Source: Chromohalobacter sp. 11-W
Lineage (GTDB): Bacteria > Pseudomonadota > Gammaproteobacteria > Pseudomonadales > Halomonadaceae
DNA length: 64,000 nucleotides
Direction of reading: 5' to 3'
Assembly: GCF_029889905.1 (NCBI RefSeq)
Contig: NZ_JARANZ010000001.1
Location: forward strand, 1-64,000
Below the pieces are notes generated by a model, which was given only the letters and a program-made list of their open reading frames with translations, had not been told where the DNA came from and searched no databases. Position 1 is the stretch's first letter, and each line of letters begins with the position of its first letter. The translations under genes were made by a program, and so were the position numbers. Positions 6,481 to 23,613 of this stretch are shown one piece after another.

Positions 6481-7593
6481 ATGCGCGGACGCTGGCAGGT
6501 AGGCAATCGTTTCACCTTGTTGCCGGAAGGCAAACGCTTTCTTCCCGCCTTGTTTACAGCCATCGATGAAGCGCGCACCACGCTTTATCTCGAACTGTAT
6601 TTGATGGAGTCGGGAACGCTCGCCACACGCGTGATCGATGCCTTGTGCGCGGCGGCCGGGCGGGGTGTCACGGTGCTGGTACTGCTCGATGGCTATGGTT
6701 CGATGAAGCTCGCGCATTCTGACCGTGAGCGCTTGCGTGAGGCCGGCGTGGCGCTGCGCTTCTTCAATCCGCTGGCCTGGCATCAACTGGGCAAGAATCT
6801 GTCGCGCGATCATCGCAAGCTGCTGATCGTCGACGAGAAACTGGCATTCACCGGTGGTTTCGGCGCCGTCGATTCCTTCGTCGAGGCGTGGTATGAAGTC
6901 GCCGTACGTATCGAGGGGCCGGTCGTCGCGGATTGGATCGGCCTGTTCGCGCAACTCTGGGAATCGCCCTTGACGCGCCGCAAGGCGGCGCCGCGTCACT
7001 GGCCGTCCCCGCGCTCCATCGCACCGCTCACGGAGGACATGCGCGGACGTATGATCAGTGGGCGTGGGCATCGTTACCAGGCGATTCGGCATTCGCTGCA
7101 TCAGCGTATCGCTACTGCCGAGCGGCGGTTGTGGCTGTGTACGCCCTACTTCGTGCCGACTTTCAGCCTGCGCCGACGCCTGATCCGCGCCGCGCGCCTG
7201 GGCCTTGACGTGCGGCTATTGCTGCCGGGCTCGCGCCACGACCATCCGAGCATTCGCTATGCCGGGCAACGTTTCTACGCGCGACTTTTGCGGGCCGGGG
7301 TACGCATCTACGAGTTTCAGCCGACCTTCATTCACGCCAAGTTCGTGCTGGTCGACGATTGGGCGTCGATCGGCTCGTGCAACTTCGATCACTGGAGCCT
7401 GCAGTGGAATCTCGAGGCTAACCAGGAAGTCGAGGATACGAGATTCGCCCGCGACGTGGCGGCTCTGTTCGAGCGTAACTTCGCCGCCAGCGAGGAAATC
7501 CATTGGGAGCAGTGGCGCTATCGCCCCTGGACTCAGCGCTGCCGTGAGTGGGTTTTCGGCACCCTCAACGGGTGGATGACACGGCTGCGCTGA
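6481..7593 (+). CDS. Cardiolipin synthase-like phospholipase D family protein (ClsB type)
   Basis: The protein is 370 aa with two phospholipase D domains. The first HKD motif is DHRKLLIVDEKLAFTGGFG near residue 113, and the second is HAKFVLVDDWASIGSCNFD near residue 285. Both have the catalytic His and Lys. It lacks the N-terminal transmembrane pair of ClsA, so it resembles ClsB. It probably joins phosphatidylglycerol with PG or PE at the inner membrane. The start at 6481 is chosen because AAGGAG lies 6 bp upstream; an in-frame upstream ATG at 6358 would add 41 basic residues with no RBS. It is divergent from plsB. Exact donor specificity cannot be read from sequence. Confidence 0.88.
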   Translation: MRGRWQVGNRFTLLPEGKRFLPALFTAIDEARTTLYLELYLMESGTLATRVIDALCAAAGRGVTVLVLLDGYGSMKLAHSDRERLREAGVALRFFNPLAWHQLGKNLSRDHRKLLIVDEKLAFTGGFGAVDSFVEAWYEVAVRIEGPVVADWIGLFAQLWESPLTRRKAAPRHWPSPRSIAPLTEDMRGRMISGRGHRYQAIRHSLHQRIATAERRLWLCTPYFVPTFSLRRRLIRAARLGLDVRLLLPGSRHDHPSIRYAGQRFYARLLRAGVRIYEFQPTFIHAKFVLVDDWASIGSCNFDHWSLQWNLEANQEVEDTRFARDVAALFERNFAASEEIHWEQWRYRPWTQRCREWVFGTLNGWMTRLR

Positions 7594-7601
7594 ATGCGTG
7601 T

Positions 7602-8252
7602 CTAGCGGCGACCCTTGCCTCCTGGGCGTCCGGCGGGTTTCTTCTTGCGCGGTGTGGGCTTGGGTTTTTCCTCGGGGACCCGGTAGTGCAGATAGAGATC
7701 CAGGATCAGCTCGGGTAGCTGCTTGACGAGCGCCTCGGCTCGGGGGCCGTCAGCAATCAGTTCGTGCATGTCGGGTTCGTCGTCGAATAGCCCCGACAAA
7801 GCCATGAAGGGCAGCAGCAGCTCGGCGACCCGGGCTTCGTCGTGCTCGAACCAGGCGACTTCATTGAGAAACACACCTTCCATGAAGCCCGCGCACCAAT
7901 CGCCGATGGGCGTTTCCTCGGGGGCGATGTCGCCGAGCTCGAGATCGAACGGCAGTTCGGGTAGATGACCGTGCTCGAGGGCTTCGATGGCGTTTTGCTT
8001 GAGCGTCTCGCAGAGGCCGAGAATCTGTTCGCGCTGCGCGGCGTCGGTGAACTGCGGCTCGCCATGGTAAAGCTCGGCGACCCAGGTCGTGGCCGGTGTC
8101 TCGATCGGCGCGATCGCCAGCGCGACGAGGAAACCGTGCGTGCCGATCAAGTCGAGCGCTTCAGGGTCGACTTGGTCGGATTCAAGGAAATCGTCGAGGG
8201 TCTCGAGCGCTTCGTCGTCGAGCAGGGGCATGGGGGGCGACGTCTCGGACAT
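7602..8252 (-). CDS. UPF0149 (YecA/YgfB family) protein
   Basis: A 216-aa acidic protein with the UPF0149 fold: the N-terminal segment LLDDEALETLDDFLES, then DLIGTHGFLVALAIAP, and the core IGDWCAGFMEGV with the conserved WxxGFxxG pattern. Family members are of unclear function. The C-terminus is a strongly basic tail (KPKPTPRKKKPAGRPGGKGRR) after a long acidic body. This suggests a nucleic-acid- or ribosome-binding extension (inference); no SEC-C zinc motif is visible. Start ATG at 8252 follows AAGAGG; an upstream in-frame start would add 23 residues unlike the family. It is divergent from the SprT-like gene. Confidence 0.85.
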   Translation of the reverse strand: MSETSPPMPLLDDEALETLDDFLESDQVDPEALDLIGTHGFLVALAIAPIETPATTWVAELYHGEPQFTDAAQREQILGLCETLKQNAIEALEHGHLPELPFDLELGDIAPEETPIGDWCAGFMEGVFLNEVAWFEHDEARVAELLLPFMALSGLFDDEPDMHELIADGPRAEALVKQLPELILDLYLHYRVPEEKPKPTPRKKKPAGRPGGKGRR

Positions 8253-8324
8253 GATGGGCCTCTTGCAGGGGAGCGGTCGGTGAGTGGTGGACGCCTGTCG
8301 CGTTGCGCGGCATTCTAGCATCCC

Positions 8325-8867
8325 ATGATGTCTGTCACCTTGCCCTCTCCCGATAACGATTGGTTAGTGTCGCTCGACGAGCCGGCTCTCCACGAGGCGC
8401 TACATGCGCGTGTTGAGGCGGCTTGGCGCGTCGCCCTCGATGTTCATCCTGCCCTGCCGCGCCCCGACGTGTGGTTGGACCTGCGTGGCAAGGGGGCCGG
8501 TCAGGCGCACTTCTCGCGCGGCGGCCTACGTTTCAATCCCGTCCTACTGCGCGAGAACCGCCAGGCGTTCATGGTGGATGTGGTTCCGCATGAGATGGCG
8601 CATTGGCTGGTCTTTCACCTCGAGGGGCCGCCAGCGCGTCCGCACGGCCACGAATGGCGTACCGTCATGCAGAAGCTCTACGGTTTGCCGCCACGTACCA
8701 CGCACCGTTTCGATGTCACGCGTGCCAGTCCCGCACCGTATTGCTACCGTTGTGGTTGTGCCACCGAGCATCAATTTTCCGCGCGGCGTCATTCGCGGGC
8801 ACAGCGAGGCACGAACTATCATTGTCGATATTGTCGACAGCGCTTGCGCTTCGTTGCGAAAAAGTGA
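8325..8867 (+). CDS. sprT: SprT-like zinc metallopeptidase family protein
   Basis: A 180-aa SprT family protein. The metal-binding motif VPHEMAHWL (HExxH) lies near residue 88. A C-terminal zinc ribbon follows, with Cys pairs in YCYRCGC and YHCRYCRQRLRF. Eukaryotic Spartan relatives cleave DNA-protein crosslinks; the bacterial role is not established. Two adjacent ATG codons (8325 and 8328) could start it. The gene shares a 72-bp divergent spacer with the UPF0149 gene. Confidence 0.9.
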   Translation: MMSVTLPSPDNDWLVSLDEPALHEALHARVEAAWRVALDVHPALPRPDVWLDLRGKGAGQAHFSRGGLRFNPVLLRENRQAFMVDVVPHEMAHWLVFHLEGPPARPHGHEWRTVMQKLYGLPPRTTHRFDVTRASPAPYCYRCGCATEHQFSARRHSRAQRGTNYHCRYCRQRLRFVAKK

Positions 8868-8900
8868 TGTAACTCAATGAATTAAAAAGAAAAAATGGTA

Positions 8901-8912
8901 ATACCAAGGTCT
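8901..8912 (+). promoter_or_regulatory. Candidate CrbR/ErdR-type activator site upstream of acs
   Basis: The 12-mer ATACCAAGGTCT matches, at 10 of 12 positions, ATACCAAAGTAT found upstream of the symporter operon (20774-20785, minus strand). It lies 109 bp before the acs start. A TATATG box begins 37 bp after the motif start, and the -35 position has no consensus, which fits an activator-dependent promoter. The link to the response regulator is inferred from context. Confidence 0.4.
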
Positions 8913-9020
8913 AATAGGGAGCCAGGGGGTCTACGGGTATATGCTGGATGGGTATTCTTGGACGGTCACGTGGTCAATCGTGTGGCCGATCATCCATTTC
9001 TCGACCTTTGCGAGGAAGCC

Positions 9021-10970
9021 ATGACCGAACAGCAGAAAGTCTACCCGGTGGCGGAGGACTTCGCCGCCAATGCCTGGGCGGATAACGAGACGTATCTGAG
9101 CCTTTATCAGCGCTCCGTCGACGATCCCGAAGGCTTCTGGGCGGAACAGGCCGAGTCTCTGGATTGGTTCAAGGCGCCGACCAAGATCAAGAACACTTCA
9201 TTCGCCGCCTCCAACGTGGATATTCGCTGGTTCGAGGATGGCGAACTCAACGCCGCCTACAACTGCCTTGATCGCCATCTCGAGACCCGTGGCGATCAGC
9301 CGGCGATCATCTGGGAAGGCGACGATCCGGGGCAGGACAAGACCATTACCTACCGCGAGCTGCATGCCGAGGTGTGCCGCTTGAGCAACGCACTCAAGGA
9401 AATGGGTGTCACCAAGGGCGACACCGTCACGCTCTACATGCCGATGATTCCCGAGGCGTCGGTGGCGATGCTGGCGTGCGCGCGTATCGGGGCGATCCAC
9501 TCGGTGGTGTTCGGTGGCTTCTCGCCGGATGCGCTGGCACAACGCGTGGTCGATGCTCAGTCACGCGTGGTGATCACCGCCGACGAGTCGGTGCGCGGTG
9601 GCAAGCACGTACCGCTCAAGGATAACGTCGACGCCGCGATGACCCGTGACGGCACCGATATCGTCGACAAGGTGTTGGTCGTGCGCCGCACCGGCGGCGA
9701 GATCGAATGGCACGACGACCGCGACGTCTGGTACCACGAGTGGGTCGATCGCCAGTCCAGCGAATGCCCGGCGGAGAAGATGAACGCCGAGGATGCGCTG
9801 TTCATCCTCTATACCTCCGGCTCCACTGGGCGTCCCAAGGGACTCAAGCACACCACCGGGGGCTATCTGCTCTATGCGGCGCTGACGCATCGCTATGTAT
9901 TCGACTACCACGAAGGTGAAGTGTACTGGTGCAGTGCCGATGTGGGCTGGGTCACCGGGCATAGCTACATCGTCTATGGCCCGCTGGCCAACGGCGCGAC
10001 CACGCTGATGTTCGAAGGCGTGCCAAGCTATCCCACGCACGGGCGCCTCGGCGAGATCATCGATAAGCACCAGGTATCGATTCTCTACACCTCGCCGACC
10101 GCCATCCGCGCGTTGATGGCGCATGGCGAGAACATCATGGACTCGAGCCAGCGTGATAGCCTGCGTGTGCTGGGGTCGGTGGGTGAGCCGATCAACCCCG
10201 AGGCGTGGAGTTGGTTCCACCGTGTGATCGGCAACTCGCGCTGCCCGATCGTCGACACCTGGTGGCAAACCGAGACCGGCGGCATCATGATCACGCCGTT
10301 GCCGGGGGCCACCGATCTCAAGCCGGGCTCCGCCACGCGGCCGTTCTTCGGTGTGCGCCCGGCGCTGCTCGACAACGAGGGTAATGTGCTCGAAGGCGCC
10401 ACCTCGGGCAACCTGGTGCTCCTCGATTCTTGGCCCGGTCAGGCGCGCACCATCTGGAACGATCACGAACGCTTCGTGCAGACGTACTTCTCTCCTTACG
10501 AAGGTGTTTACTTCACCGGCGATGGCTGCCGTCGCGACGAGGATGGCTACTACTGGATCACCGGTCGCATAGACGACGTGCTCAACGTTTCCGGGCACCG
10601 CATGGGCACCGCCGAGATCGAATCCTCGTTGGTGGCACACAGCGCTGTGGCCGAAGCCGCTGTAGTGGGATATCCCCACGACATCAAGGGACAGGGCATC
10701 TACATTTACGTGACCCTGGGTGACGACGTCGAACCTAGTGAGGAGCTACGCAAGGAGTTGACGCAATGGGTGCGCAAGGATATCGGGCCGATCGCGACGC
10801 CGGATGTCATTCAGTGGGCGCCGGGGCTGCCGAAGACCCGTTCCGGCAAGATTATGCGGCGTATCTTGCGTAAGATCGCCGCCAACGAGTGCGAGGGCTT
10901 GGGCGACACCAGTACGCTGGCTGACCCGAGCGTGGTCGATGAGTTGATCGAGCACCGCGCCAATCGTTGA
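9021..10970 (+). CDS. acs: Acetyl-CoA synthetase
   Basis: AMP-forming acetate:CoA ligase that activates acetate for the TCA cycle and glyoxylate shunt. The 649-aa protein has the adenylate-forming A3 motif [11 protein letters not shown], the motif WWQTETGG, the hinge region [18 protein letters not shown], and the C-terminal [11 protein letters not shown] whose Lys is the acetylation-controlled residue. Start ATG at 9021 gives [10 protein letters not shown] at the normal family length (E. coli 652 aa); an upstream in-frame frame would add 42 residues without family support. A response regulator of the acs-activating type follows 259 bp downstream on the same strand, after a terminator. Confidence 0.98.
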
Positions 10971-11075: not shown

Positions 11076-11229
11076 CGTGCCACCAGGAACGTTCGGGGGT
11101 GCGTCGACGCAAGGCTTGGGTATTGTCTACAGCATGGGGTAACATGCTGAAAACAAGAAGTGAACCTGATGCTTGCCGATGACAATCGCGGCACGACCGT
11201 TCGCTCCAGGGGGATCCGGAGGAGACACA

Positions 11230-11892
11230 ATGGCTTTTGCCCAGAAATTCATCGTCGCCGATGACCACCCGCTATTTCGTGCCGCGCTCAACCAGGCGTT
11301 GCGCCAAGTAGCGCCACAGGCGGAGATCGTCGAAGCCGATACCATGGAGGCGACGTCCGACATGGTAATGCGCCATCCCGATGCCGACCTTATCTTGCTC
11401 GACTTGCACATGCCGGGTGCGCATGGCTTTTCGGGACTGATCCAACTGCGCGGTCAGTCGCCCGAGGTGCCCGTGGTCGTCATTTCGGGCAGCGAGGAGC
11501 CGCCCGTAGTGCGTCGTGCCATCGACTACGGTGCCTCGGGGTTCATTCCCAAGTCCTCGTCGCTGGATGTTATCGCCGAGGCGATCCGACAAGTGCTCGA
11601 AGGGGAGGTTTGGTTGCCCGAGGAGATGGCTGATGTGCTCGGGGAGTCGAACGAAGATGAAGCGCGCTTCGCCGAAGCCATCGCCTCGCTGACACCTCAG
11701 CAGTTCCGCGTACTCAACATGTTGAACGAAGGTCTGCTCAACAAACAGATCGCCTATGAGCTCAACGTGTCGGAGGCGACCATCAAGGCGCATGTCACGG
11801 CGATTCTCCGCAAACTGGGTGTGCATTCGCGTACACAGGCGGTCATCGCCGCACAGAAGCTCGAGGTCGAACCGCCCAAGGTCGAGTCCTAG
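11230..11892 (+). CDS. crbR: LuxR-type response regulator (CrbR/ErdR-like)
   Basis: A 220-aa NarL/FixJ-type regulator. The receiver domain has acidic pocket residues DD at 11-12, the phosphoacceptor Asp58 in LLDLHMPG, and the conserved Lys in IPKSSS. A LuxR HTH covers about residues 155-210 (LTPQQFRVLNMLNEGLLNKQIAYEL). The name rests on context: it follows acs, and a CrbS-type kinase lies nearby. In Vibrio and Pseudomonas this pair activates acs. Start at 11230 has GGAGG 7 bp upstream. An upstream in-frame extension is unsupported. A different cognate kinase cannot be excluded. Confidence 0.82.
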   Translation: MAFAQKFIVADDHPLFRAALNQALRQVAPQAEIVEADTMEATSDMVMRHPDADLILLDLHMPGAHGFSGLIQLRGQSPEVPVVVISGSEEPPVVRRAIDYGASGFIPKSSSLDVIAEAIRQVLEGEVWLPEEMADVLGESNEDEARFAEAIASLTPQQFRVLNMLNEGLLNKQIAYELNVSEATIKAHVTAILRKLGVHSRTQAVIAAQKLEVEPPKVES

Positions 11893-13869: not shown

Positions 13870-16800
13870 TTAGGTATCCTGTCGAACGGCGCGGTTGGCT
13901 TGCAAGGTGCGTGTCAAAAGCGCCCGCAAGGCGGCGGGGCGCACCGGTTTGAGCAGCAATTGATAGCCATTGCGACGAATCTCCTCGGCGACCTCGTCGG
14001 TACGGTCGGCGGTGATCACGATACCCGGAACGGGGCCTTCGCAGAGCTCCTCGAGCGCTTCCAGCGCCATCAATCCGGTAACCTCGTTGTCCAGATGGTA
14101 GTCGGCGAGAATGGCTTCGGGATCGCTGTCCAGATGGCGTAACACCGACTTGGCGCCGCCGATGGACGTGGCGGTGAAGACTTCGCACTCCCAGCCATCG
14201 AGCATCGCCTTCATGCCCTCGAGGATCAGTGTTTCGTTGTCGATACACAGGATTCTGGCGCCTGCGAGTTTGTTGCCGGGACGCCGCGTGGGCGTATCCT
14301 CGGCGCTTTTTTCCTGTTGGCGTCCCTCGACCCGAGGCACCGACACCGAGAACACGGTGCCGACGTTTTCCCACGAGCGAATCTTGATGGGATGTTCGAG
14401 CACTCGGCTCATACGGTCGGCAATGGAGAGCCCGAGCCCCAGGCCCTTCTCGCTTTCCTTGTGACGCGAGGCCTGATCGAGGCGACGAAATTCCTGGAAG
14501 ATTTCCGCCTGCTTGGCCTCGGGAATGCCCGGACCGGTATCCCAAACTTCGATGGTCAGTTGCTCGCCCTTGCGCCGGCACCCCAGCAGCACACGCCCTT
14601 GCTGTGTATAGCGCAGCGCGTTGGAGAGGAAATTCTGCACGATGCGTCGTAACATCTGGGCGTCGCTGTCCACCCAGGTGCCGGTGGCAACGACATCCAG
14701 GTCGAGCCCGCGATCCGTGGCCATGACCTCGAACTCGGCGCGCAGCGGGCGCAGAATGTCGGTGAGCGGGAACTGTGTCCGGCGGGGTGTCAGGGCGCCG
14801 GCATCGAGTTTGGAGATGTCGAGCAGCGTGCTCAAAAGCTCCTCGGCGGCCTGTAGCGAATTGTCGATGTGGCCGATGGTATGGCGCAGCTCGTCGGCTT
14901 CGACCTGCTGTCCCAGTGCCGAGGTGAAGAGACGTGCGGCGTTGAGCGGTTGGAGCAGGTCATGGCTGGCGGCGGCCAGAAAACGTGTTTTTGAGGCGTT
15001 GGCCTCCTCGGCGACCTGCTTGGCTTGGCGCAGCGCCGACTCGGCCTCGGCGCGCACACGGTTTTCCTGGCGCAGGGCCGCGTTGGCTTCCGACAGCGCC
15101 TGGGTCCGCTCGCGGACGCGTTCCTCGAGGTTTTCGTTGGTCTCGCGCAGGGCAATTTCGGCCAGGCGGCGCTCGGTAATGTCCTGATAGAGGGCGAAGA
15201 ACCCGAGCACGCTCTCGCCTTCGCCGAAGTGGGGCGTGTAGGTCACCAGCATGTAACGCACGCCACCGTCGCCGTCGTCCTGTGAGATTTCGAAGCTCAC
15301 CCGCTCGCCGGCCAGCACACGATGCATCCACGGCGAGCGCTCGCGGATGACCTGGGCGGGCATGACGTGGTCGAAGCGTTCGCCGATCGCTTCGTTGCGG
15401 TCGATGCCCATTGCCGCTTCATAGGCACGGTTGGTGAAGAGGTAACGGCATTCCTTGTCGAAATAGGCGATCAGCGCCGGCACATTGTCGGTGTAGATGC
15501 GGATGTTGTTTTCGGAGCGGATCAGCGCCTCTTCGGTGCGCTTTTGCTGGGTAATGTCCTGATAGGTATAGACGAAGCCGCCGCCTGGCATGGGGTTGCC
15601 CTGAACCTCGAGCACCGTGCCATCCTGGCGGTAACGTACGTAGCGGTGTGGTTGCCCCTGGCGGATGTTGTCCATCAAGAGCTCGACGTGCTCCTCGGGG
15701 TCGCCGGGACCGTATTCGCCGTTATGCGCGTTGTAGCGCAGGATCTTGTCGAACGGCGCGTTGACCCGGATCAAACTGTCGGGGAAGCGAAACAGCTCCA
15801 GATAACGCTGGTTCCATACCACCAGGCGCGCGTTCTGATCGATCACGCTGATGCCCTGGTTGATATTCTCGATGGTCGCTTGCAGCAGGGCGCGGTTGAA
15901 CTCCAGCACCTGCGAGGCTTCGTCGACGATCGAGATGACATCGGAGATACCGATGCCGCGCCCTTGCAGCGCCGAATTGACCACGATGCGTGCCGACGAC
16001 GCTCCGAGTACTGAGGATAACAAGCGCTCGGTGAACTGGATGACGTCGATCGAGGCGCGGGTGTTGTCGTCCACGGACTGGCCGCCACGGCGTGAATAGT
16101 CCTCGAAGGCGCGCTGTACCTGGCTGGTGCCCAGGAAACGCTCGCAGAGGACCTTGAGATCGCCCACCGTGGTGGCGCCGGTCCAGGGGCGGTTGACCGA
16201 GGTCTGGCGAGTCTCGACGCTATCGACGAATAATGATGCCTGGATACGCTCGACGACGCGCTGCGGGGTGATCTGCGAGACAAAGATGTAGCAGAACAGG
16301 TTGAGCCCCAAGGACAGCATGACGCCGTGGGTGAAGCTGTCCCCGACGTTGAGCCCGAACAGGTGTGTCGGCGCCAGCCAGTCGAGCCCCAAGGGACCGC
16401 TGGTCAGCCAGGTCATGGGCAGCAATTCGGCCTGCACCAGCGCCGGGAGCAGCAGCGTGTAGGCCCACACCGCGAAACCGACGTTCATGCCGGCAATGAC
16501 GCCGAGGCGGTTGCCACGCTTCCAGTAAAGTCCGCCCAGCAAGGCAGGCGCGAACTGGGCGGCTGCGGCGAACGACAACATGCCTGTCGAGGCCAAGGTG
16601 CTGTATTCGGCGATCAGGCGATAAAAGATGTAGGCCAGCAGCAGAATGAGGACGATGGTCGCGCGTCGCGCACGTAGCACCAGCTTGGCGTAGTCGCCTT
16701 CGGTGACGAACCAGCGTAGGCGGAACAGCAGCGGGATGATGATCTCGTTGGAGATCATGATCGACACCGCCACGGCGGCCATGATGACCATGCCGGTCGC

Positions 16801-17820
16801 TGCCGAGAGCCCGCCGATAAAGGTGAGCAGCCCCAGCCATTCGCTGCCGCCGGCCATGGGCAGCGCCAGCATGAAGGTATCGGGGTTGACCTCACCATCG
16901 GGGAATATCGTCAGGCCCGCCGCTGCGATAGGCAGCACGAAGAAACCGATGGCGGCTAGATACAGCGGGAATAGCCAGCGGGCGCGCTTGGCGTCGTCTG
17001 CGTGGGTGTTTTCGACCACGGCGAGGTGAAACTGGCGGGGCAGGCAGAAGATGGCCAGCATCGCGAGTAGCGTCTGTGCCCAGAAGCCGTGGCCGAAATC
17101 CTGCTCGGTCAGTTGACGCTGCAATTCCAGATGCGTATCGGCGCGGCCGAACAGGTCGCCGAGGCCGTCGAACATGCCCCAGGTGACGTAGGCGCCGAGC
17201 ACCAGGAAGGCGACCAGTTTGACCAGCGATTCGAAGGCGATGGCGTGAATCAGGCCCTCGTGATGCTCGGTGGCATCGGTATGTCGCGTGCCGAAGAGAA
17301 TGGCGAACAGCGCCATGACGGCCGCGATATAGAAGGCCGTATCGCCGAACACAGGGGCGCGGGTCAGATCGGCGCTGTCGGTCAGCACGGTGAATGCCGA
17401 GGCCACGGCCTTCAGTTGCAAGGCGATGTAGGGCAGCGTGCCGATCAAAGCCACCAGGCTGGCGAATGCCGCCAACGACTGGGTCTTGCCATAGCGCGAG
17501 GCGATGAAGTCGGCGATCGAGGTCACGTTCTGGCGTTTGGCGACGCGGATCATCTTGGCCAATACGGGCCAGAATAGCAGGAAGGTCAGAATCGGGCCGA
17601 CAAAGATGCTGGCGAACGACCAGCCCGACGTGGCGGCCTCGCCGACGGCGCCATAGAACGTCCACGAGGTACAGTAGACCGCCAGCGCGAGGCTGTAGAC
17701 GATGGGTCGCCGTCTGCCCGGTCCATGGCGCTTGGCCTGGCTATCGCCACGCCAAGCGATGGCAAATAATACGGCAATGTAGATCAGCGATATGACGATC
17801 AGTAGCCAGCCAGCAAACAT
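13870..17820 (-). CDS. crbS: Sodium/solute symporter-hybrid histidine kinase (CrbS/MxtR type)
   Basis: A 1316-aa fusion. Residues 1 to about 500 form an SSS-type symporter domain with about 13 membrane helices. Two PAS domains follow, the first containing NINQGISVIDQNARLVVWNQ and the second SENNIRIYTDNVPALIAYF, then a coiled-coil. The histidine kinase core has His953 in ASHDLLQPLNA, N-box NFLSNALRYTQQGR, and G-boxes DTGPGIPE and GLGLGLSIADR. A C-terminal receiver carries Asp1240 in LADYHLDN. CrbS/CrbR-type kinases control acs and related genes in Vibrio and Pseudomonas. CbrA is a close architectural relative, but CbrA pairs with the sigma54 regulator CbrB, which is absent here. Start has GGGGAG upstream. 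Confidence 0.88.
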   Translation of the reverse strand: MFAGWLLIVISLIYIAVLFAIAWRGDSQAKRHGPGRRRPIVYSLALAVYCTSWTFYGAVGEAATSGWSFASIFVGPILTFLLFWPVLAKMIRVAKRQNVTSIADFIASRYGKTQSLAAFASLVALIGTLPYIALQLKAVASAFTVLTDSADLTRAPVFGDTAFYIAAVMALFAILFGTRHTDATEHHEGLIHAIAFESLVKLVAFLVLGAYVTWGMFDGLGDLFGRADTHLELQRQLTEQDFGHGFWAQTLLAMLAIFCLPRQFHLAVVENTHADDAKRARWLFPLYLAAIGFFVLPIAAAGLTIFPDGEVNPDTFMLALPMAGGSEWLGLLTFIGGLSAATGMVIMAAVAVSIMISNEIIIPLLFRLRWFVTEGDYAKLVLRARRATIVLILLLAYIFYRLIAEYSTLASTGMLSFAAAAQFAPALLGGLYWKRGNRLGVIAGMNVGFAVWAYTLLLPALVQAELLPMTWLTSGPLGLDWLAPTHLFGLNVGDSFTHGVMLSLGLNLFCYIFVSQITPQRVVERIQASLFVDSVETRQTSVNRPWTGATTVGDLKVLCERFLGTSQVQRAFEDYSRRGGQSVDDNTRASIDVIQFTERLLSSVLGASSARIVVNSALQGRGIGISDVISIVDEASQVLEFNRALLQATIENINQGISVIDQNARLVVWNQRYLELFRFPDSLIRVNAPFDKILRYNAHNGEYGPGDPEEHVELLMDNIRQGQPHRYVRYRQDGTVLEVQGNPMPGGGFVYTYQDITQQKRTEEALIRSENNIRIYTDNVPALIAYFDKECRYLFTNRAYEAAMGIDRNEAIGERFDHVMPAQVIRERSPWMHRVLAGERVSFEISQDDGDGGVRYMLVTYTPHFGEGESVLGFFALYQDITERRLAEIALRETNENLEERVRERTQALSEANAALRQENRVRAEAESALRQAKQVAEEANASKTRFLAAASHDLLQPLNAARLFTSALGQQVEADELRHTIGHIDNSLQAAEELLSTLLDISKLDAGALTPRRTQFPLTDILRPLRAEFEVMATDRGLDLDVVATGTWVDSDAQMLRRIVQNFLSNALRYTQQGRVLLGCRRKGEQLTIEVWDTGPGIPEAKQAEIFQEFRRLDQASRHKESEKGLGLGLSIADRMSRVLEHPIKIRSWENVGTVFSVSVPRVEGRQQEKSAEDTPTRRPGNKLAGARILCIDNETLILEGMKAMLDGWECEVFTATSIGGAKSVLRHLDSDPEAILADYHLDNEVTGLMALEALEELCEGPVPGIVITADRTDEVAEEIRRNGYQLLLKPVRPAALRALLTRTLQANRAVRQDT

Positions 17821-17886: not shown

Positions 17887-18402
17887 TCAGGACGTTTTAC
17901 ATAGAGTCTGGTAAAGCGGGGTGTCGGCGCCAATGTCGTGCAGTGCGGAGGCGTCTGGCTGGCGCTCATCGCCAACCAGCGGCGCCCATTCCCGTTCGTC
18001 GCAGTTCATCAGATAGGCCTGATGGGTCACACGGTCCGTGACCTGTTTCTCGAAACGATAGAGGATAAATTCCATCATGCGTTGGCCGTTGGCCTCGGTG
18101 GTGCGTAAATGATCGTGATCGATCACCTCGAAGGCGACGGGTAAGGGGTATAGATACGTCCAGGGCCGCCAGAACATCGAATCATATTCGACATCGACGA
18201 CCTCGGCGGAGTCGGGCAGTTGCTGCTGCTTGGACGCCAACCAGTTGTATTCATAGTAGATCTGATAACTGAGCATTCCTACGCCTGCTAGTGCCGGCAC
18301 GATCCAGCGGGGCAAGCGCTTGCCGCTAAGCTGTCGCAGGATCAACCCGATCCCTGCAGCGCCGAGGCCGGCAAATATCACCGCGATCAATTGCCAAATC
18401 AT
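17887..18402 (-). CDS. Unknown membrane-anchored protein beside crbS and the symporter
   Basis: A 171-aa protein I do not recognise. Two hydrophobic helices (about residues 2-24 and 31-48) are followed by a soluble C-terminal domain of about 120 residues. That domain is rich in Tyr, Trp and acidic residues (MFWRPWTYLYPLPVAFEVID) and has two Cys (MNCDERE and the C-terminal TLCKTS). No known motif is visible. Start ATG at 18402 follows GGGAGAG; the upstream in-frame ATG at 18417 lacks an RBS. It lies between crbS and the symporter operon on the same strand, 66 bp before crbS and 93 bp after the symporter, so a shared role in solute sensing is plausible but unproven. Confidence 0.75.
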   Translation of the reverse strand: MIWQLIAVIFAGLGAAGIGLILRQLSGKRLPRWIVPALAGVGMLSYQIYYEYNWLASKQQQLPDSAEVVDVEYDSMFWRPWTYLYPLPVAFEVIDHDHLRTTEANGQRMMEFILYRFEKQVTDRVTHQAYLMNCDEREWAPLVGDERQPDASALHDIGADTPLYQTLCKTS

Positions 18403-18495
18403 AATCTCTCCCTGCAACGAAATCGGGCCTCCCCCAGGGAAGCCCGATAGTGTGATCCCGTGGCCCGGGCCAGCCGAGCCGATGGGTATTATGGC

Positions 18496-20277
18496 TTAGT
18501 GGCTAACGGCACCACCAGCACCTTTGGGATAGCGCACGCTTTCCACCAGTTCCTGAATCTCCCGAGGCGGTTCCTCGGATGATTTGGAAACGAGGTAGGC
18601 GACCGCGAAGTTGACGATCGCACCCACCGCGCCGATGGAGAGCGGCGAAATGCCGAGTACCCAATTTTCAGGCGTATCCGCCAGGTTATTGGTGCCGGGG
18701 ATGAAGAACCAGCCTTTGTAGATGAAGATGTAGACCAAGGTGAAGGTCAGCCCTGACAACATCCCCGCGATGGCCCCTTTGTTATTCACCCGTTTGGAGA
18801 AGATCCCCATCATCAGCACCGGGAATAGCGATGCAGCGGCGATACCGAAGGCTAATGCCACGACCTGAGCTGCGAATCCTGGAGGATTGGCGCCGAGGTA
18901 GGTGGCGACAACGATGGCAATCGACATCGAGATGCGTGCCGCTCGCAATTCCCCTCGTTCCGTTATGCCTGGGTTTATGGCGCCTTTGATCAAGTCATGA
19001 CTGATCGCCGAGGAGATGGCCAATAGCAGCCCGGCAGCAGTGGAGAGAGCCGCGGCCAGACCCCCGGCGGCGATCAGTCCTATGACCCAGGAGGGGAGGT
19101 TGGCGATCTCTGGGTTTGCCAGTACCAGTATATCGTTGTTGACGGTCAACTCGTTTCCGGACCAGCCGCGATCCGAGAAATCGGTGCTGTCGTTGTAGAA
19201 CTGAATGTCGCCGTCGCTGTTTTTGTCGTCGAAGGTGATCAGCCCTGTTTCTTCCCAGGTCCGTATCCACTCCGGCCGGTTTTCGTAAGCGATGGGATTG
19301 GCGGCGGCGGCGTCGTAATTCTCGACTTGACCTGCCATGTCGGGATAGATGGTCGTCATCAGGTTCAAGCGTGCCATGGACGCTACGGCCGGCGCGGTCA
19401 GATAGAGCAGACCGATGAATACCAGCGCCCAGCCGGCGGACCAGCGAGCATCTGCCACCTTGGGCACGGTGAAAAAACGCATGATGACGTGGGGAAGACC
19501 GGCGGTCCCGATCATCAGCGACAGGGTGAACAGCACCATGTTGAGCTTGTTGTCGACCATCGCCGTATAGGCATCGAAGCCCAGCGCACTCACTACTTCA
19601 TTGAGCTTGGACAGTAGCGGTTCGCCGGAGGCGCTGTGCTCGGAGAACAGGCCCAGCGGAGGAAGCGGATTGCCGGTAAGTTCTAGCGAAATGAATACCG
19701 CTGGGATGGTATAGGCAATGATCAGTACGATGTACTGAGCCACCTGCGTGTACGTGATGCCCTTCATGCCACCCAGCACGGAATAGAAGAACACCACGAC
19801 GGCGGCGATGATCAGGCCGGTGGTTGCGTCGACTTCCAGAAAGCGTGAAAAAGCGACACCAGCACCGGCCATCTGACCTATTACGTAGGTCAGGGAAGCC
19901 ACGATCAGACAGACGACGGCAACCATGCGAGCCGTGCGGCTGTAGAAGCGGTCGCCAATGAACTCTGGCACCGTGAACTTGCCGAATTTCCTCAGGTAAG
20001 GCGCCAATAGCAAGGCCAACAGCACATAACCGCCGGTCCAGCCCATTAGAAAGGTGGAGTTGGCATAGCCGCCAGCGGCGATGAGGCCCGCCATGGAAAT
20101 GAAGGAGGCGGCGGACATCCAGTCAGCCCCAATCGCCATGCCGTTGGTAATCGGGTGTACGCCGCCACCGGCCACATAGAAATCTTTGGTGGAGCCCGCC
20201 TTGGCCCAGATAGCGATGCCAATGTATATAGCGAAAGAAGCGCCGACGAACAGGATATTGATGGCAAATTGACTCAT
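18496..20277 (-). CDS. Sodium:solute symporter large subunit (VC_2705-like, acetate/monocarboxylate type)
   Basis: A 593-aa SSS-family transporter with about 13 membrane helices. SSS motifs include DFYVAGGGVHPITNGMAIGADWMSAASF near the N-terminus and IAAGGLAAALSTAAGLLLAISSA, the sodium-site region. An unusual acidic loop of about 90 residues (from about residue 305) interrupts the core, as in the subfamily that pairs with a small DUF4212 subunit. The gene is preceded by exactly such a subunit. The substrate is probably acetate or another small carboxylate, from its ActP-like core and its CrbS-type kinase neighbour. That specificity is an inference. Confidence 0.88.
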   Translation of the reverse strand: MSQFAINILFVGASFAIYIGIAIWAKAGSTKDFYVAGGGVHPITNGMAIGADWMSAASFISMAGLIAAGGYANSTFLMGWTGGYVLLALLLAPYLRKFGKFTVPEFIGDRFYSRTARMVAVVCLIVASLTYVIGQMAGAGVAFSRFLEVDATTGLIIAAVVVFFYSVLGGMKGITYTQVAQYIVLIIAYTIPAVFISLELTGNPLPPLGLFSEHSASGEPLLSKLNEVVSALGFDAYTAMVDNKLNMVLFTLSLMIGTAGLPHVIMRFFTVPKVADARWSAGWALVFIGLLYLTAPAVASMARLNLMTTIYPDMAGQVENYDAAAANPIAYENRPEWIRTWEETGLITFDDKNSDGDIQFYNDSTDFSDRGWSGNELTVNNDILVLANPEIANLPSWVIGLIAAGGLAAALSTAAGLLLAISSAISHDLIKGAINPGITERGELRAARISMSIAIVVATYLGANPPGFAAQVVALAFGIAAASLFPVLMMGIFSKRVNNKGAIAGMLSGLTFTLVYIFIYKGWFFIPGTNNLADTPENWVLGISPLSIGAVGAIVNFAVAYLVSKSSEEPPREIQELVESVRYPKGAGGAVSH

Positions 20278-20283
20278 GCTGGT

Positions 20284-20544
20284 TTACTCCTCGAGTCCGT
20301 ATTGCTTGTCCAGCCGGTTCATCTTCCAGGCATAGAAGAAGATCAGGCCAATGAACGTCAGAATGGAGCCCTGTTGAGCAAACCAGAAGCCCAGGTCAGT
20401 ACCACCGACGGGAATGCTGGATAGCAGGGGGCGCAGCAGGATCGCGCAGCCGTAAGACACCAGCGCCCAGACGATCAGGCAGCCGGTGATAAGTCGCACG
20501 TTGGCTTTCCAGTAAGCTTCGGCATTGGATTTTTCATCTGCCAT
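20284..20544 (-). CDS. Symporter small subunit (DUF4212 family)
   Basis: An 86-aa membrane protein with two helices. The family hallmarks AYWKANVRLITG, FWFAQQGSI and the C-terminal YAWKMNRLDKQYG are present; these define the putative small subunit found immediately upstream of SSS transporters. The ATG at 20544 with GGAGAG upstream gives the normal length of about 90 aa; a longer frame would add 21 residues. It ends 6 bp before the large subunit start, so the two are surely co-translated. Confidence 0.92.
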   Translation of the reverse strand: MADEKSNAEAYWKANVRLITGCLIVWALVSYGCAILLRPLLSSIPVGGTDLGFWFAQQGSILTFIGLIFFYAWKMNRLDKQYGLEE

Positions 20545-21100
20545 GGTGTCGCTCTCCACTGGTAGGGATATGTTGGTGTTGTGATGAGAGTGTGCGAGAC
20601 GCTTCAAAGCAATCGCAGGTATAGAACACTCTGTAGGGTAACGTCATTGATACGATAGTGGCGCTAGACTTTTATCGACCATGACGATGCTATCCGTCCT
20701 GTGTTAACTACCTGGGATTGCCTTGAATTGCCATACTGATGATAGTGGCCAATGACGGGAAAAAAAGAACCCCATACTTTGGTATCGAGCCATTAGTTTA
20801 AAGAGTAATTTTTTGAATTATCATGTTTTTCATGAGGTTGTGCGGGAGTCAAGAATTTATAGCAGGCTTATAAAAAAGGCATCAGCGAGTCTTTAGGTAC
20901 ATAAGTCAATGGCCGTTCTTTGGATGCGATTTCAGCGTAGAACGATAGTCTATGTGTCGTAATAAAAGTCAGTTTTGCTACTCTTGATCGCGTAATATGG
21001 TAAGCATCTTTCGGCCGTGTTACCGAAAAGTATAAGGAACATGAAGCGGTAATGATGACACCAAGTCGTGCCAGGGTCGGCACAGGACGAGGGTACTACC
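20545..21100. other. Divergent intergenic region, AT-rich
   Basis: A 556-bp gap between the symporter operon and the cNMP/CBS gene. It is clearly more AT-rich than its surroundings, especially 20760-21050. It contains the candidate activator site at 20774-20785 and no convincing gene. A 71-codon frame on the minus strand (20868-21083) has no RBS or family features. Confidence 0.6.
20774..20785 (-). promoter_or_regulatory. Candidate CrbR/ErdR-type activator site upstream of the symporter operon
   Basis: On the minus strand ATACCAAAGTAT, in which ATAC and GTAT form an inverted repeat. It matches the acs-upstream motif at 10 of 12 positions. A TATCAT box begins 41 bp downstream of the motif start, similar to the spacing at acs. 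The site lies about 230 bp before the DUF4212 gene. Confidence 0.4.
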
Positions 21101-22918
21101 ATGGTCGATATCAACCTCTCGCAACCACCTTTCAGCTTGCTCGATGAAAAAGGTCGTCAGCGTGTACGGGACGGAGTCGATCTCGCCTATTTCAATGAGA
21201 GCGAGGTTGTACTCGATGCCGGTCAACCCGGTGAGCATGTGTTCCTGATTCACAAAGGCGAAGTGGCGGAGCTCGATCTCAACGCTAGCGAGGGAGAGCG
21301 GCGTATCGGCCACTACACGGCGGGCGATCTGTTCGGGGCTATCAGCATCCTCAACGGTACGAGCCGTTATAGATTTCAGGCCGAGCAAGAAAGTCTGTGC
21401 TATTTGCTTCCCCGCCGGCTTTTCGAGGACATTTGCAGCGCATACCCCGCCTTCGATAATTACTTCCGCCAGCACCTGGCCGAAAAGGCGCGCAATGTGC
21501 TCGAGCGGCGGGCGGAAGGGGGGATGAGCATGGCACGCTTCATGCTGGCACGGGTGGCGGAGTGCATGCGCGAACCCGTCGTGGTCGAAGGGCATACCAC
21601 GATTGCCGAGGCCGTCACGCACTTGCGCGAGCGTCATGCCGATAGCTTGCTGGTCAGCCATGCGGGGCGCTGCGGTATGGTCACCAAGACCGATCTTCTC
21701 GATGCGCTGGTTCAGCAAGGCTTGCCGCATTCCGCCGAAGTGGGCGGCATCGCGCATTTCACGCTGATCACCTCGCATGCCGACGACTATCTCTTTACCG
21801 CGCTGGTCAGCATGACGCGCCATGAAGTGGCGCGTGTCGTGGTCATGGAGGGCGCGCAGGCGGTGGGCGTCGTCGAGTTGACCGATGTGCTGGGGTATTT
21901 TTCGAGCCGCGCCCATACCGTCAGCCTGCAGATCGAGCAGGCGGAGGATATCGAGGCGTTAGCGCGTGCCAGCGCGCGTCTGCCTCAGTTGATTCAGACA
22001 TTGACGGCGCAAGGCGTGAAGTTGCGCTTCGCCATGGAGCTTCTGGCGGCGCTCAACGGTCGGATCATCCACAAGGCGTTCCGGTTCTTGATGCCCGAGG
22101 ATCGTCAGTCTCAGTCATGTCTGCTTGTCATGGGCAGCGAGGGGCGCGGCGAGCAGATTCTCAAGACCGATCAGGACAACGCTTTGATCCTGGCCGATGG
22201 CAGCGATTGGCCGGGTATCGAGGACGCCATGAGGGCCTTGACCGATACGCTGGGCAGGCTTGGCTATCCGCCTTGCCCGGGCAACATCATGGTCTCCAAT
22301 CCGCAGTGGGTAGCGAGCGAGTCGGCGTGGCGCGGCAAAATCGCCCGCTGGGCGTCTAGCCGTGACCCGGATGCCTTGATGAATCTCGCCATCATGCTCG
22401 ACGCCCATGCCATCGCCGGTAACGCGAGCTTGCTCGAAGGTCTCCGTGAGCACTTATTCGCGCGCGGCTCCCACGATGAGTTGCTGCTGTCGTACTTCGC
22501 TCGGGGGGTGTTGCGTTACTCCACGCCGCTGACCCTGTTCGGCACGCTCAAGCGCCCGGAGCATGGCATCGACATCAAGAAAGGTGGGATTTTTCCCATC
22601 GTGCATGGCGTGCGCACGCTGGCGCTGGAACGCCGAGTCGCCGCCACCTCGACGTTTGCGCGTCTCGATGCATTGGTCGATGACGGTCGCCTCGACCGGC
22701 CTTTCGCCGACGACCTGGGCGAAGCCATGGCGCTGTTTTCCGAGCTGCGCCTACGTCAGCAGTTGGAAAACCTGGAAGGCAACGACGCGTCGCAGGAGCC
22801 CAATCGCGTGGTCGTGCAGCGTCTCAGTGGCTTCGAGCGTGACTTGCTGCGCGAGGCGTTGCATACGGTCAAGGAATTCAAACAACGCTTGTCACAGCGT
22901 TTTCATCTTGAATATTGA
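21101..22918 (+). CDS. cNMP-binding/CBS/DUF294 nucleotidyltransferase-like protein
   Basis: A 605-aa cytoplasmic protein with four parts: a cyclic-nucleotide-binding-like domain (about residues 5-130, with HVFLIHKGEVAELD and YTAGDLFGAISIL); two CBS repeats (about 160-280); a GlnD-like nucleotidyltransferase core with GSEGRGEQILKTDQDNALI; and a DUF294 C-terminal helical domain. The G-S-x-G-R-x-E and D-x-D pattern suggests an active transferase. The substrate is unknown. The ATG at 21101 is chosen over a GTG at 21068. It is divergent from the symporter operon and 77 bp before a DnaQ-like exonuclease, a pairing often seen beside such symporters. Confidence 0.88.
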   Translation: MVDINLSQPPFSLLDEKGRQRVRDGVDLAYFNESEVVLDAGQPGEHVFLIHKGEVAELDLNASEGERRIGHYTAGDLFGAISILNGTSRYRFQAEQESLCYLLPRRLFEDICSAYPAFDNYFRQHLAEKARNVLERRAEGGMSMARFMLARVAECMREPVVVEGHTTIAEAVTHLRERHADSLLVSHAGRCGMVTKTDLLDALVQQGLPHSAEVGGIAHFTLITSHADDYLFTALVSMTRHEVARVVVMEGAQAVGVVELTDVLGYFSSRAHTVSLQIEQAEDIEALARASARLPQLIQTLTAQGVKLRFAMELLAALNGRIIHKAFRFLMPEDRQSQSCLLVMGSEGRGEQILKTDQDNALILADGSDWPGIEDAMRALTDTLGRLGYPPCPGNIMVSNPQWVASESAWRGKIARWASSRDPDALMNLAIMLDAHAIAGNASLLEGLREHLFARGSHDELLLSYFARGVLRYSTPLTLFGTLKRPEHGIDIKKGGIFPIVHGVRTLALERRVAATSTFARLDALVDDGRLDRPFADDLGEAMALFSELRLRQQLENLEGNDASQEPNRVVVQRLSGFERDLLREALHTVKEFKQRLSQRFHLEY

Positions 22919-22995
22919 GGTGCTCGTCAGGCAAGGGCCGCGAGTGGTCGAGTCAAACCCCGCGAGCTATCGTCAGAGGCATACGGGAGGTTGCG

Positions 22996-23613
22996 ATGAT
23001 AAAAGCATTGCGTCGTGCCGGTGATCGGCGCCGCCAACTGGGCGGGCATCACGCTTGGCGTTTCGAGCCGTATTGCGGCAGTGAAGTCATCGCTCTGGAC
23101 TGCGAGACGACCGATCTTGACCCGCGGCGTGCGGAGTTAGTGGCGCTGGCGGCGGTCAAGGTGCGCGATGGACGCGTGCTGACCAGCGAGTCGTTGGACC
23201 TGCGCCTGCAGCGTCCGGAGAGCCTGTCGGGCGACTCCATCCGTATCCATGGCTTGCGCGGCGTCGATCTATGGGGCGGCGAGGCGTTGGGCGATGCACT
23301 CGACCGTTTGCTCGATTTCATTGGCAATCGTCCGTTGGTCGGCTGGTGCATCGATTACGACGTGGCGGTCATCAATCGTCACTTGCGCCCGCGTACGGGG
23401 TTTGACCTGCCCAATCGGACGCTGGATGTCTGCCGGTTGTATGCGCGTGAACGCCGGCGCGTGCAGCCGGATATCGAGCCGGATGTGCGTTTCGAGGCCA
23501 TGAGCGAGGCCTTGGGCGTACCCATCATGGGGCGTCATACGGCATTGGGTGATGCCGTGACCACGGCACTGATGTATCTGCGCCTGTGTCACGGGCGCGC
23601 GATCAGCGCCTGA
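22996..23613 (+). CDS. DnaQ-like 3'-5' exonuclease (DEDDh family)
   Basis: A 205-aa single-domain exonuclease. ExoI is ALDCETTD with Asp35 and Glu37, ExoII is WCIDYDVAVINRHL, and ExoIII is HTALGDAVTTALMYL, giving the DEDDh set. It lacks the polymerase III tau- and alpha-binding tail of the true epsilon subunit, so it is probably not the replicative proofreader. GGGAGG precedes the ATG by 5 bp; an alternative TTG at 22915 overlapping the upstream stop is less likely. It follows the DUF294 protein and is likely co-transcribed. Its substrate is unknown. Confidence 0.87.
   Translation: MIKALRRAGDRRRQLGGHHAWRFEPYCGSEVIALDCETTDLDPRRAELVALAAVKVRDGRVLTSESLDLRLQRPESLSGDSIRIHGLRGVDLWGGEALGDALDRLLDFIGNRPLVGWCIDYDVAVINRHLRPRTGFDLPNRTLDVCRLYARERRRVQPDIEPDVRFEAMSEALGVPIMGRHTALGDAVTTALMYLRLCHGRAISA

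Follow-up and report, generated by a model that had tools for sequence, protein, structure and literature searches.

A nucleotidyltransferase paired or fused with an exonuclease-fold protein beside SLC5-type symporters in Halomonadaceae and other Pseudomonadota

The window analysed here, a stretch of 64,000 nucleotides from Chromohalobacter sp. 11-W (assembly GCF_029889905.1, contig NZ_JARANZ010000001.1, positions 1 to 64,000), carries a pair of genes for a cNMP-CBS-DUF294 nucleotidyltransferase and a DEDDh exonuclease, transcribed away from an operon for an SLC5-type sodium/solute symporter (Table 1). An earlier note, made from the letters of this DNA, had described the transferase as a 605-residue protein with an intact core that diverges from the symporter operon, and Pfam matches, alignment and the layout of the open reading frames (ORFs) all bear this out. 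The operon on the opposite strand runs in the order DUF4212 subunit, symporter, a 176-residue protein and a CrbS-like SLC5 kinase, with the acetyl-CoA synthetase gene (acs) and a response regulator that we take, by resemblance, to be CrbR-like at a distance of 9–12 kb. The exonuclease most likely starts at the ATG at 22996, behind the GGGAGG, rather than at 22915, which leaves a gap of 77 nt after the transferase stop codon. By its transferase, the nearest named relative is C. beijerinckii (Halomonadaceae), at 98% identity.

Table 1. Features of the transferase–exonuclease locus and its surroundings (window coordinates).
Feature	Positions	Strand	Basis
cNMP-fold/CBS/DUF294/DUF294_C nucleotidyltransferase, 605 aa	21101..22918	+	Pfam, alignment, predicted structure
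Catalytic-motif codons, G345 to D359, G-X11-D-X-D spacing	22133..22177	+	sequence, alignments
DEDDh 3'-5' exonuclease, PRK09145 family, 205 aa	22996..23613	+	NF006601, DEDHD residues, GGGAGG site
Divergent control region, DUF4212-symporter operon / transferase	20608..21100		weak best ACTU-like site near 20937-20953
DUF4212 symporter small subunit	20284..20607	-	PF13937, TIGR03647
SLC5-type sodium/solute symporter, VC_2705 family	18496..20277	-	TIGR03648, 837 bits
176-aa protein without family match	17887..18417	-	recurs next to the symporter
CrbS-like SLC5-PAS hybrid histidine kinase	13870..17820	-	Pfam SSF, PAS, HisKA, HATPase_c, Response_reg; name by resemblance
CrbR-like response regulator	11173..11892	+	ORF; name by resemblance
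Acetyl-CoA synthetase (acs)	8895..10970	+	ORF; name by resemblance

The transferase is composed of a cNMP_binding (residues 30–114), a CBS (152–204), a DUF294 (293–423) and a DUF294_C domain (462–601), all of which score above the curated Pfam cut-offs, with PF03445 at 139.1 bits (cut-off 21) followed by PF10335 at 138.3 bits (cut-off 22.5). Within the core, GSEGRGEQILKTDQDN, the residues G345, S346, R349, E351, D357, Q358, D359 and N360 are invariant in 40/40 aligned homologues, and the catalytic motif, for which we assume the G-X11-D-X-D spacing rule, is present in 79/80 further loci (the script failed to read the remaining one, L109); a fused protein, L276, is the one clear exception. Nucleotide-sensing domains had also been ascribed to this protein, an ascription that stands for one of its two front-end modules. 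In the first CBS motif, T195 and D198 of the [ST]xxD signature, which we take to be adenosine-binding, are kept in 40/40 homologues (in the second a Glu occupies the Ser/Thr position in 26/40 rows), whereas the N-terminal domain has a cNMP fold (Z about 17–19) from which the phosphate-binding Glu is missing in 40/40 homologues. The cAMP-binding PKA domains aligned to it do carry this residue (FGE versus FGA), the cassette being presumably defined by a Glu and an Arg. With the cassette residues missing, the N-terminal domain is unlikely to sense cAMP, and the retained TxxD thus makes the CBS domain the better guess for an adenylate sensor. Many CBS structures are similar to the CBS pair, including that of AcuB, a protein that acts in the control of acetate activation and has been solved with AMP, ADP, ATP or Ap4A; AcuB is 29% identical over 119 columns but has no transferase domain, and the CBS similarity is generic.

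In the AlphaFold2 model (pLDDT 85.5, pTM 0.66), the predicted fold of residues 268–602 is closest to the adenylylation domain of GlnE (3k7d; Z 26.1, rmsd 3.0, 298 aligned residues), followed by the N-domain of GlnE (1v4a, Z 25.1) and the AMPylase DrrA/SidM (6yx5, Z 24.5). With GlnE, whose domains are the best structural matches, and with GlnD the protein shares a pol-beta-fold catalytic domain, the motif spacing and a helical C-domain. GlnE has two transferase domains and GlnD has HD and ACT domains, whereas the window protein has a single transferase domain, no HD or ACT domain in the Pfam scan, and a cNMP/CBS front end; a separate, weak PF03445 match in the same genome, in a frame of 899 residues, is presumably GlnD. 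DrrA, a secreted effector, shows the same arrangement of catalytic and helical domains over 294 residues at 14% identity, and we know of no CBS domain or exonuclease partner for it. With GlnE and DrrA as the nearest folds, the model favours protein nucleotidylation over nucleotide cyclisation.

The adjoining gene product matches PF00929 and passes NF006601 (245.4 bits, cut-off 189), whereas the models of DnaQ proofreaders remain far below their cut-offs (TIGR01406, 33.7 against 222.7 bits; NF004316, 28.2 against 196 bits), in agreement with its earlier description as a DEDDh exonuclease that is not a replicative proofreader. All five DEDDh residues are present (D35, E37, D122, H181 and D186). 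Among relatives by sequence in the PDB, the exonuclease profile finds PolC and DnaQ first and also reaches Cas2-DEDDh and Orn. A role in anti-phage defence is not favoured: no PADLOC model matched the transferase, and the exonuclease matched a generic DEDDh model and PDC-S48. The same genome holds a second cNMP-CBS-DUF294 gene with a DEDDh exonuclease directly after it (L119:7032–9689; contig C1, about 132.0–134.7 kb), the paralogue at 7032–8957 and its exonuclease at 8964–9689. In this exonuclease a Glu replaces the third acid (DEEHD), as in 17/57 rows, and the pair is convergent with a transporter that we presume to be of the BCCT type.

Conservation of the arrangement was followed in 80 loci selected solely by similarity to the transferase (the best 80 of at least 568), which come from Halomonadaceae (47), Oceanospirillaceae (19), Alcanivoracaceae (6), Pseudomonadaceae (2) and Vibrionaceae (2), with 4 unplaced; the Pseudomonas and Vibrio relatives L091 and L116 are 46% and 41% identical, respectively. 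An exonuclease-like frame lies directly downstream of the transferase in 72/80 loci, a symporter match is found in the fetched stretch of 78/80, a symporter or CrbS in 79/80, and a homologue of the CrbR-like regulator in 63/80. Pairing is not strict, with eight transferases (L045, L070, L087, L091, L104, L105, L114 and L115) having no exonuclease downstream. All of these except L115 still accompany the symporter. The 176-residue protein, for which Pfam and NCBIfam gave no match, likewise stays with the symporter in many loci, even where the exonuclease is absent (L091, L104, L105, L114). The class I transferase, its exonuclease and the symporter share one and the same set of 49 among 61 genomes from the window's family; this co-loss is not independent evidence, because the genes adjoin and one deletion removes them all. 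The kinase gene crbS is present in all 61, 12 of which have no transferase, which argues for an attachment to the symporter rather than the kinase and excludes the kinase as an obligatory partner. Of the two proteins that, in the earlier note, the pair might tune, the kinase is thus a less likely target than the symporter.

A wider survey searched 120 Pseudomonadota genomes with PF03445 and took in 60 genes from 44 genomes, out of 62 that scored over 100 bits; the two left out, the window's own gene and G073:C1:3678463, both have an adjoining exonuclease. DUF294 frames were excluded from the exonuclease-profile count, and the distance limits of 2.5 and 6.5 kb were set after the layout had been seen. 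By these limits a separate DEDDh exonuclease lies within 2.5 kb of 53/60 DUF294 genes, at 4.3 kb in one case and fused in another; none was seen in 5/60 regions, one of which (L176) ends at a contig edge. An SLC5-type gene lies within 6.5 kb of 41/60. Neither was found in 20 presumed glnD control regions, hand-picked from weak PF03445 matches in frames of 900–1100 residues of the same genomes (0/20 exonuclease, 0/20 SLC5; Fisher p 1.5e-14 and 1.9e-8, respectively, kinship ignored, values that overstate independence because the 44 genomes are related). The predicted linkage of transferase and exonuclease with SSS symporters is thus recovered (54/60 near, 1/60 fused, SLC5 in 41/60, controls 0), and the two features on which the earlier proposal had been made to depend, conserved linkage and an active core, are both found (55/60 paired; core in 40/40 homologues and 79/80 loci).

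At least three classes of DUF294 protein recur in the window's family, each with an exonuclease: the window's own, the paralogue with its own exonuclease, and a short form of ∼380–410 residues that adjoins an exonuclease frame of ∼680–700 residues, a receiver-like protein (by eye) and another SLC5-type kinase. A comparable long exonuclease, encoded in L203 outside this family, shows PAS and weak HisKA matches ahead of RNase_T. Two side arrangements were seen among these loci. L203:484–9223 and L206:4407–13111 may each be an operon of an SLC5 symporter, a DUF294 protein, an exonuclease protein of ∼706 residues and an SLC5 kinase, the ∼706-residue protein with its PAS and weak HisKA matches being an exonuclease fused to a sensor module. 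In L193:4826–12104 and L194:461–8216 two DUF294–exonuclease pairs stand back to back and divergent beside one SLC5 symporter, and one of the two pairs of L193 has a short exonuclease without the catalytic residues.

The two proteins are joined covalently in a second taxonomic order, which lies outside the window's class and which we guess to be alphaproteobacterial. In L216 (genome G163) the exonuclease, the CBS pair and DUF294 form a single frame of 712 residues. A DUF294 match occurs in 39/101 genomes of this order (strong ones were also given by the Thermus and Corynebacterium controls), and of the 40 genes inspected (out of 41 listed) half are exonuclease-CBS-DUF294 fusions (20/40; L216 and 19 distinct frames), whereas a separate exonuclease lies within 2.5 kb in 14/40 (L261 and, in longer stretches, 13/19 unfused cases), giving 34/40 near or fused. 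The 13 exonucleases of the longer stretches each form the C-terminal end of a larger frame, in most cases ∼470–755 residues long. Pfam scans of the fusions returned RNase_T, two CBS, DUF294 and DUF294_C in 4/4, with the exonuclease standing where the cNMP domain otherwise sits. An SLC5 symporter or CrbS-like kinase is found beside 15/20 fusions in the stretch examined, and DEDHD is intact in all 20 fusions except L276. The latter (L276:5266–7470) is a double pseudoenzyme in which both motifs are lost, and it diverges from a CrbS-like kinase.

Among the unfused partners, the catalytic set DEDHD is kept in 50/72 and changed in 22/72, of which 4 show only a His-to-Asn replacement and 18 are without at least one catalytic carboxylate. 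All 22 altered partners fall among the 44 of Halomonadaceae, with 0/28 elsewhere, and the transferases beside them keep an intact core. On the transferase tree, parsimony requires 6 changes for the carboxylate losses and 13 for all states, although this is a quick tree without bootstraps and with long branches (L117, L084, L085, L116 and others), on which changes are unreadable as gains or losses; the starred branches alone force 3, not 4, changes for the largest group. Counted over the positions that at least 90% of 51 intact rows share, the Vreelandella-type partners (12 rows) retain 5/60 catalytic cells versus 365/672 other cells, the latter concentrated in LFxxYxGxE, GNRPxxG and FxLP and also towards the C-terminus, and the remaining ten degenerate rows retain 29/50 catalytic and 516/560 other cells. 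Codon comparison of 25 hand-picked pairs (those with dS > 1 being saturated) gave dN/dS of 0.03 to 0.43 for the 16 that include a degenerate partner (L050–L083, for instance, has 35 synonymous versus 4 nonsynonymous changes), indicative of purifying selection, and 0.01 to 0.31 in nine intact pairs, so that constraint on the degenerate forms is somewhat relaxed; in most of the 25 the exonuclease evolves faster than the transferase. From these comparisons the degenerate partners, one of which (L050) Pfam no longer recognises (0 families), look like maintained proteins and not decaying genes, a picture that speaks for a non-catalytic role and against an eraser on which the system must depend. Further exonucleases in these genomes (G073, for example, has 6 matches) could supply the activity in trans. 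In one genome without transferase and symporter (G130, L131:5027–9773), which gave no DUF4212 match either, an orphan degenerate exonuclease is left beside crbS.

Neither the pair nor its regulon is new. A P. fluorescens cNMP-CBS-nucleotidyltransferase, Pflu5625, is described as a member of the CrbS/R regulon, and the proposal that cAMP or other ligands prompt nucleotidylation has already been made for it (PMC5715377). In P. putida, ErdR binds the promoter of PP_0354 (PMC8402216), PP_0354 forms an operon with PP_0353, and the latter, a putative exonuclease, matters for growth on pyruvate (PMC9927547). For P. aeruginosa, the homologue is described as adjoining actP-yjcH (PMC9927547, PMC5715377, PMC8402216), and another study reports PA3232–PA3235 up during growth on propionate and PA3233–PA3235 down after propionate addition (PMC9765439). 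By these descriptions, Pflu5625 and PP_0354 are like the window gene in domain content and in their placement under CrbS/R (MxtR/ErdR), and PP_0354 is likewise followed by an RNase_T-family exonuclease, PP_0353; the window pair differs in that it diverges from a VC_2705-family symporter accompanied by crbS. Among the open-access literature matches listed, we found no prior report of the fusions, of how widely the exonuclease pairing extends or of the partner's repeated loss of catalysis, and we regard these as the most useful new facts; as far as these matches show, the shared set of 49 genomes is likewise new.

The regulatory sequence was assessed with an ACTU weight matrix built from 17 published sequences. 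The best site of the 64-kb window is at 8899, at the apparent 5' end of acs; as it falls inside the apparent frame (8895–9021), acs probably starts at 9021. The second best, 21094–21110, lies over the transferase start codon and may be a chance product of ACCATGGTC. Across halomonad divergent regions, 40/46 beat 95% of shuffles, with a median best score of 15.0 versus a shuffle median of 6.9. Scans for promoter patterns (3 found versus 1.4 expected) and terminator-like patterns (3 versus 2.8) remained at about chance level.

Taken as a whole, the pair genuinely belongs to the acetate/SLC5 system and forms one unit, tied to the symporter more than to the kinase. Our preferred reading, to which we give a probability of about 0.5, is of a CBS-gated transferase of the GlnE/DrrA type that modifies some protein of the symporter system with a nucleotide, partnered by an exonuclease-fold protein that may be an eraser where its site is intact. 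Within the CrbS/CrbR acetate regulon, transferase and partner would together make up one control unit that goes with the SLC5-type symporter, and in which the CBS domain would sense an adenine nucleotide and gate the catalytic domain. The latter would place a nucleotidyl group, AMP or UMP, on a symporter-system protein and thereby lower or raise uptake to match the energy state. The exonuclease-fold protein would be a constant companion that binds the transferase or its product, with physical contact in the unfused pairs too; with an intact DEDDh site it may in addition cleave the phosphodiester and thereby remove the mark, and in the many halomonads where catalysis is lost it would serve as a binding or regulatory subunit only. 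That a nuclease can remove AMP from proteins is known from RNase Z, described as the deAMPylase of SelO substrates (PMC12663964); RNase Z differs from the window exonuclease in its metallo-beta-lactamase fold and in the writer that it opposes.

The earlier note had suggested that the exonuclease may reverse the transferase, and in that form the idea is not supported: with 22/72 partners altered beside intact transferases, 18 of them without a carboxylate, and 8/80 loci without an exonuclease downstream, reversal by the exonuclease is not required, at least there. Adding and removing cannot be the only mode of the pair, and the writer–eraser idea survives solely in modified form. We know of no DEDDh exonuclease fold that acts as the eraser of a protein modification. 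A stricter version, in which the CBS-gated DUF294 enzyme attaches AMP or UMP to the SLC5 symporter itself or its small subunit, the DEDDh protein takes it off and the halomonad eraser has repeatedly become a catalytically dead reader or regulator of the mark, is doubtful, if worth keeping in view.

Several observations weigh against the preferred reading of a CBS-gated writer of protein modification. No activity, substrate or target of any DUF294 protein was found in the open-access literature searched, and nucleic acid is the usual substrate of exonuclease folds. Genes that adjoin give weak evidence by co-occurring; 19/60 DUF294 genes of the survey, the own-genome paralogue included, have no SLC5 gene in the fetched region, and no exonuclease was seen for 6/40 genes of the second order (two of them at contig ends). 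The ACTU-like site of the window's divergent region is weak (8.2), a score that 24% of shuffles reach in L039, whose transferase is 98% identical to that of the window and whose site is the same. Deletion of the P. fluorescens transferase gene had a negligible effect on growth on acetate (PMC5715377), and deletions of PP_0354 and PP_0353 were both silent on 20 mM acetate (PMC9927547). Finally, the fold cannot separate a writer from a remover, since 1v4a is the deadenylylating half of GlnE, the N-domain that removes AMP (PMC12663964).

This last point opens the way to a reading in which the transferase is itself an eraser, like the N-domain of GlnE, of a nucleotide added by another enzyme, with the exonuclease merely structural. 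The near-equal ranking of the two GlnE halves (Z 25.1 for the deadenylylating and 26.1 for the adenylylating domain) and the repeated loss of the exonuclease site would suit it, but the motif spacing is also compatible with a writer, and no other kind of transferase was noticed beside the window pair (the neighbourhoods of the relatives were not searched for one), and we hold this arrangement to be very unlikely. Pol-beta-fold enzymes also make nucleotide signals and fusions of a maker with its breaker have precedents, so the transferase might instead produce a cyclic or linear oligonucleotide that the DEDDh protein degrades, as oligoribonuclease does dinucleotides. The exonuclease profile does reach oligoribonucleases, although PolC and DnaQ rank first; the nearest folds of the transferase, however, are protein adenylyltransferases with the same helical C-domain, and the supposed breaker is without a catalytic carboxylate in 18/72 loci and was not seen in 8/80, which leaves a small-molecule signal unlikely.

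DEDDh proteins are mostly nucleic-acid exonucleases, and the PDB relatives by sequence (PolC, DnaQ, Cas2-DEDDh and Orn) would agree with a pair that acts on RNA, the transferase extending a 3' end and the exonuclease trimming it in order to tune transcripts of the regulon. Against this stand the linkage of the genes to membrane transporters, the retention of degenerate exonucleases and a Pfam scan that shows no RNA-binding domain in either window protein, so that an RNA substrate appears quite unlikely. That the genes are co-regulated neighbours of the symporter without any joint function would suit the negligible or absent acetate phenotype of single mutants (PMC5715377, PMC9927547), but it is highly improbable in view of the 20 fusions (4/4 of those scanned being confirmed), of three DUF294 classes each with an exonuclease, and of controls at 0/20.

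Bacterial uptake of acetate and other monocarboxylates is switched on by CrbS/R, and the gene pair had previously been reported among the genes of that regulon; to our knowledge there is no account of how the symporter itself is tuned. The pair of transferase and exonuclease-fold protein offers a concrete, testable lead on the post-translational control of transporters, and a lead on what may be a new class of eraser.

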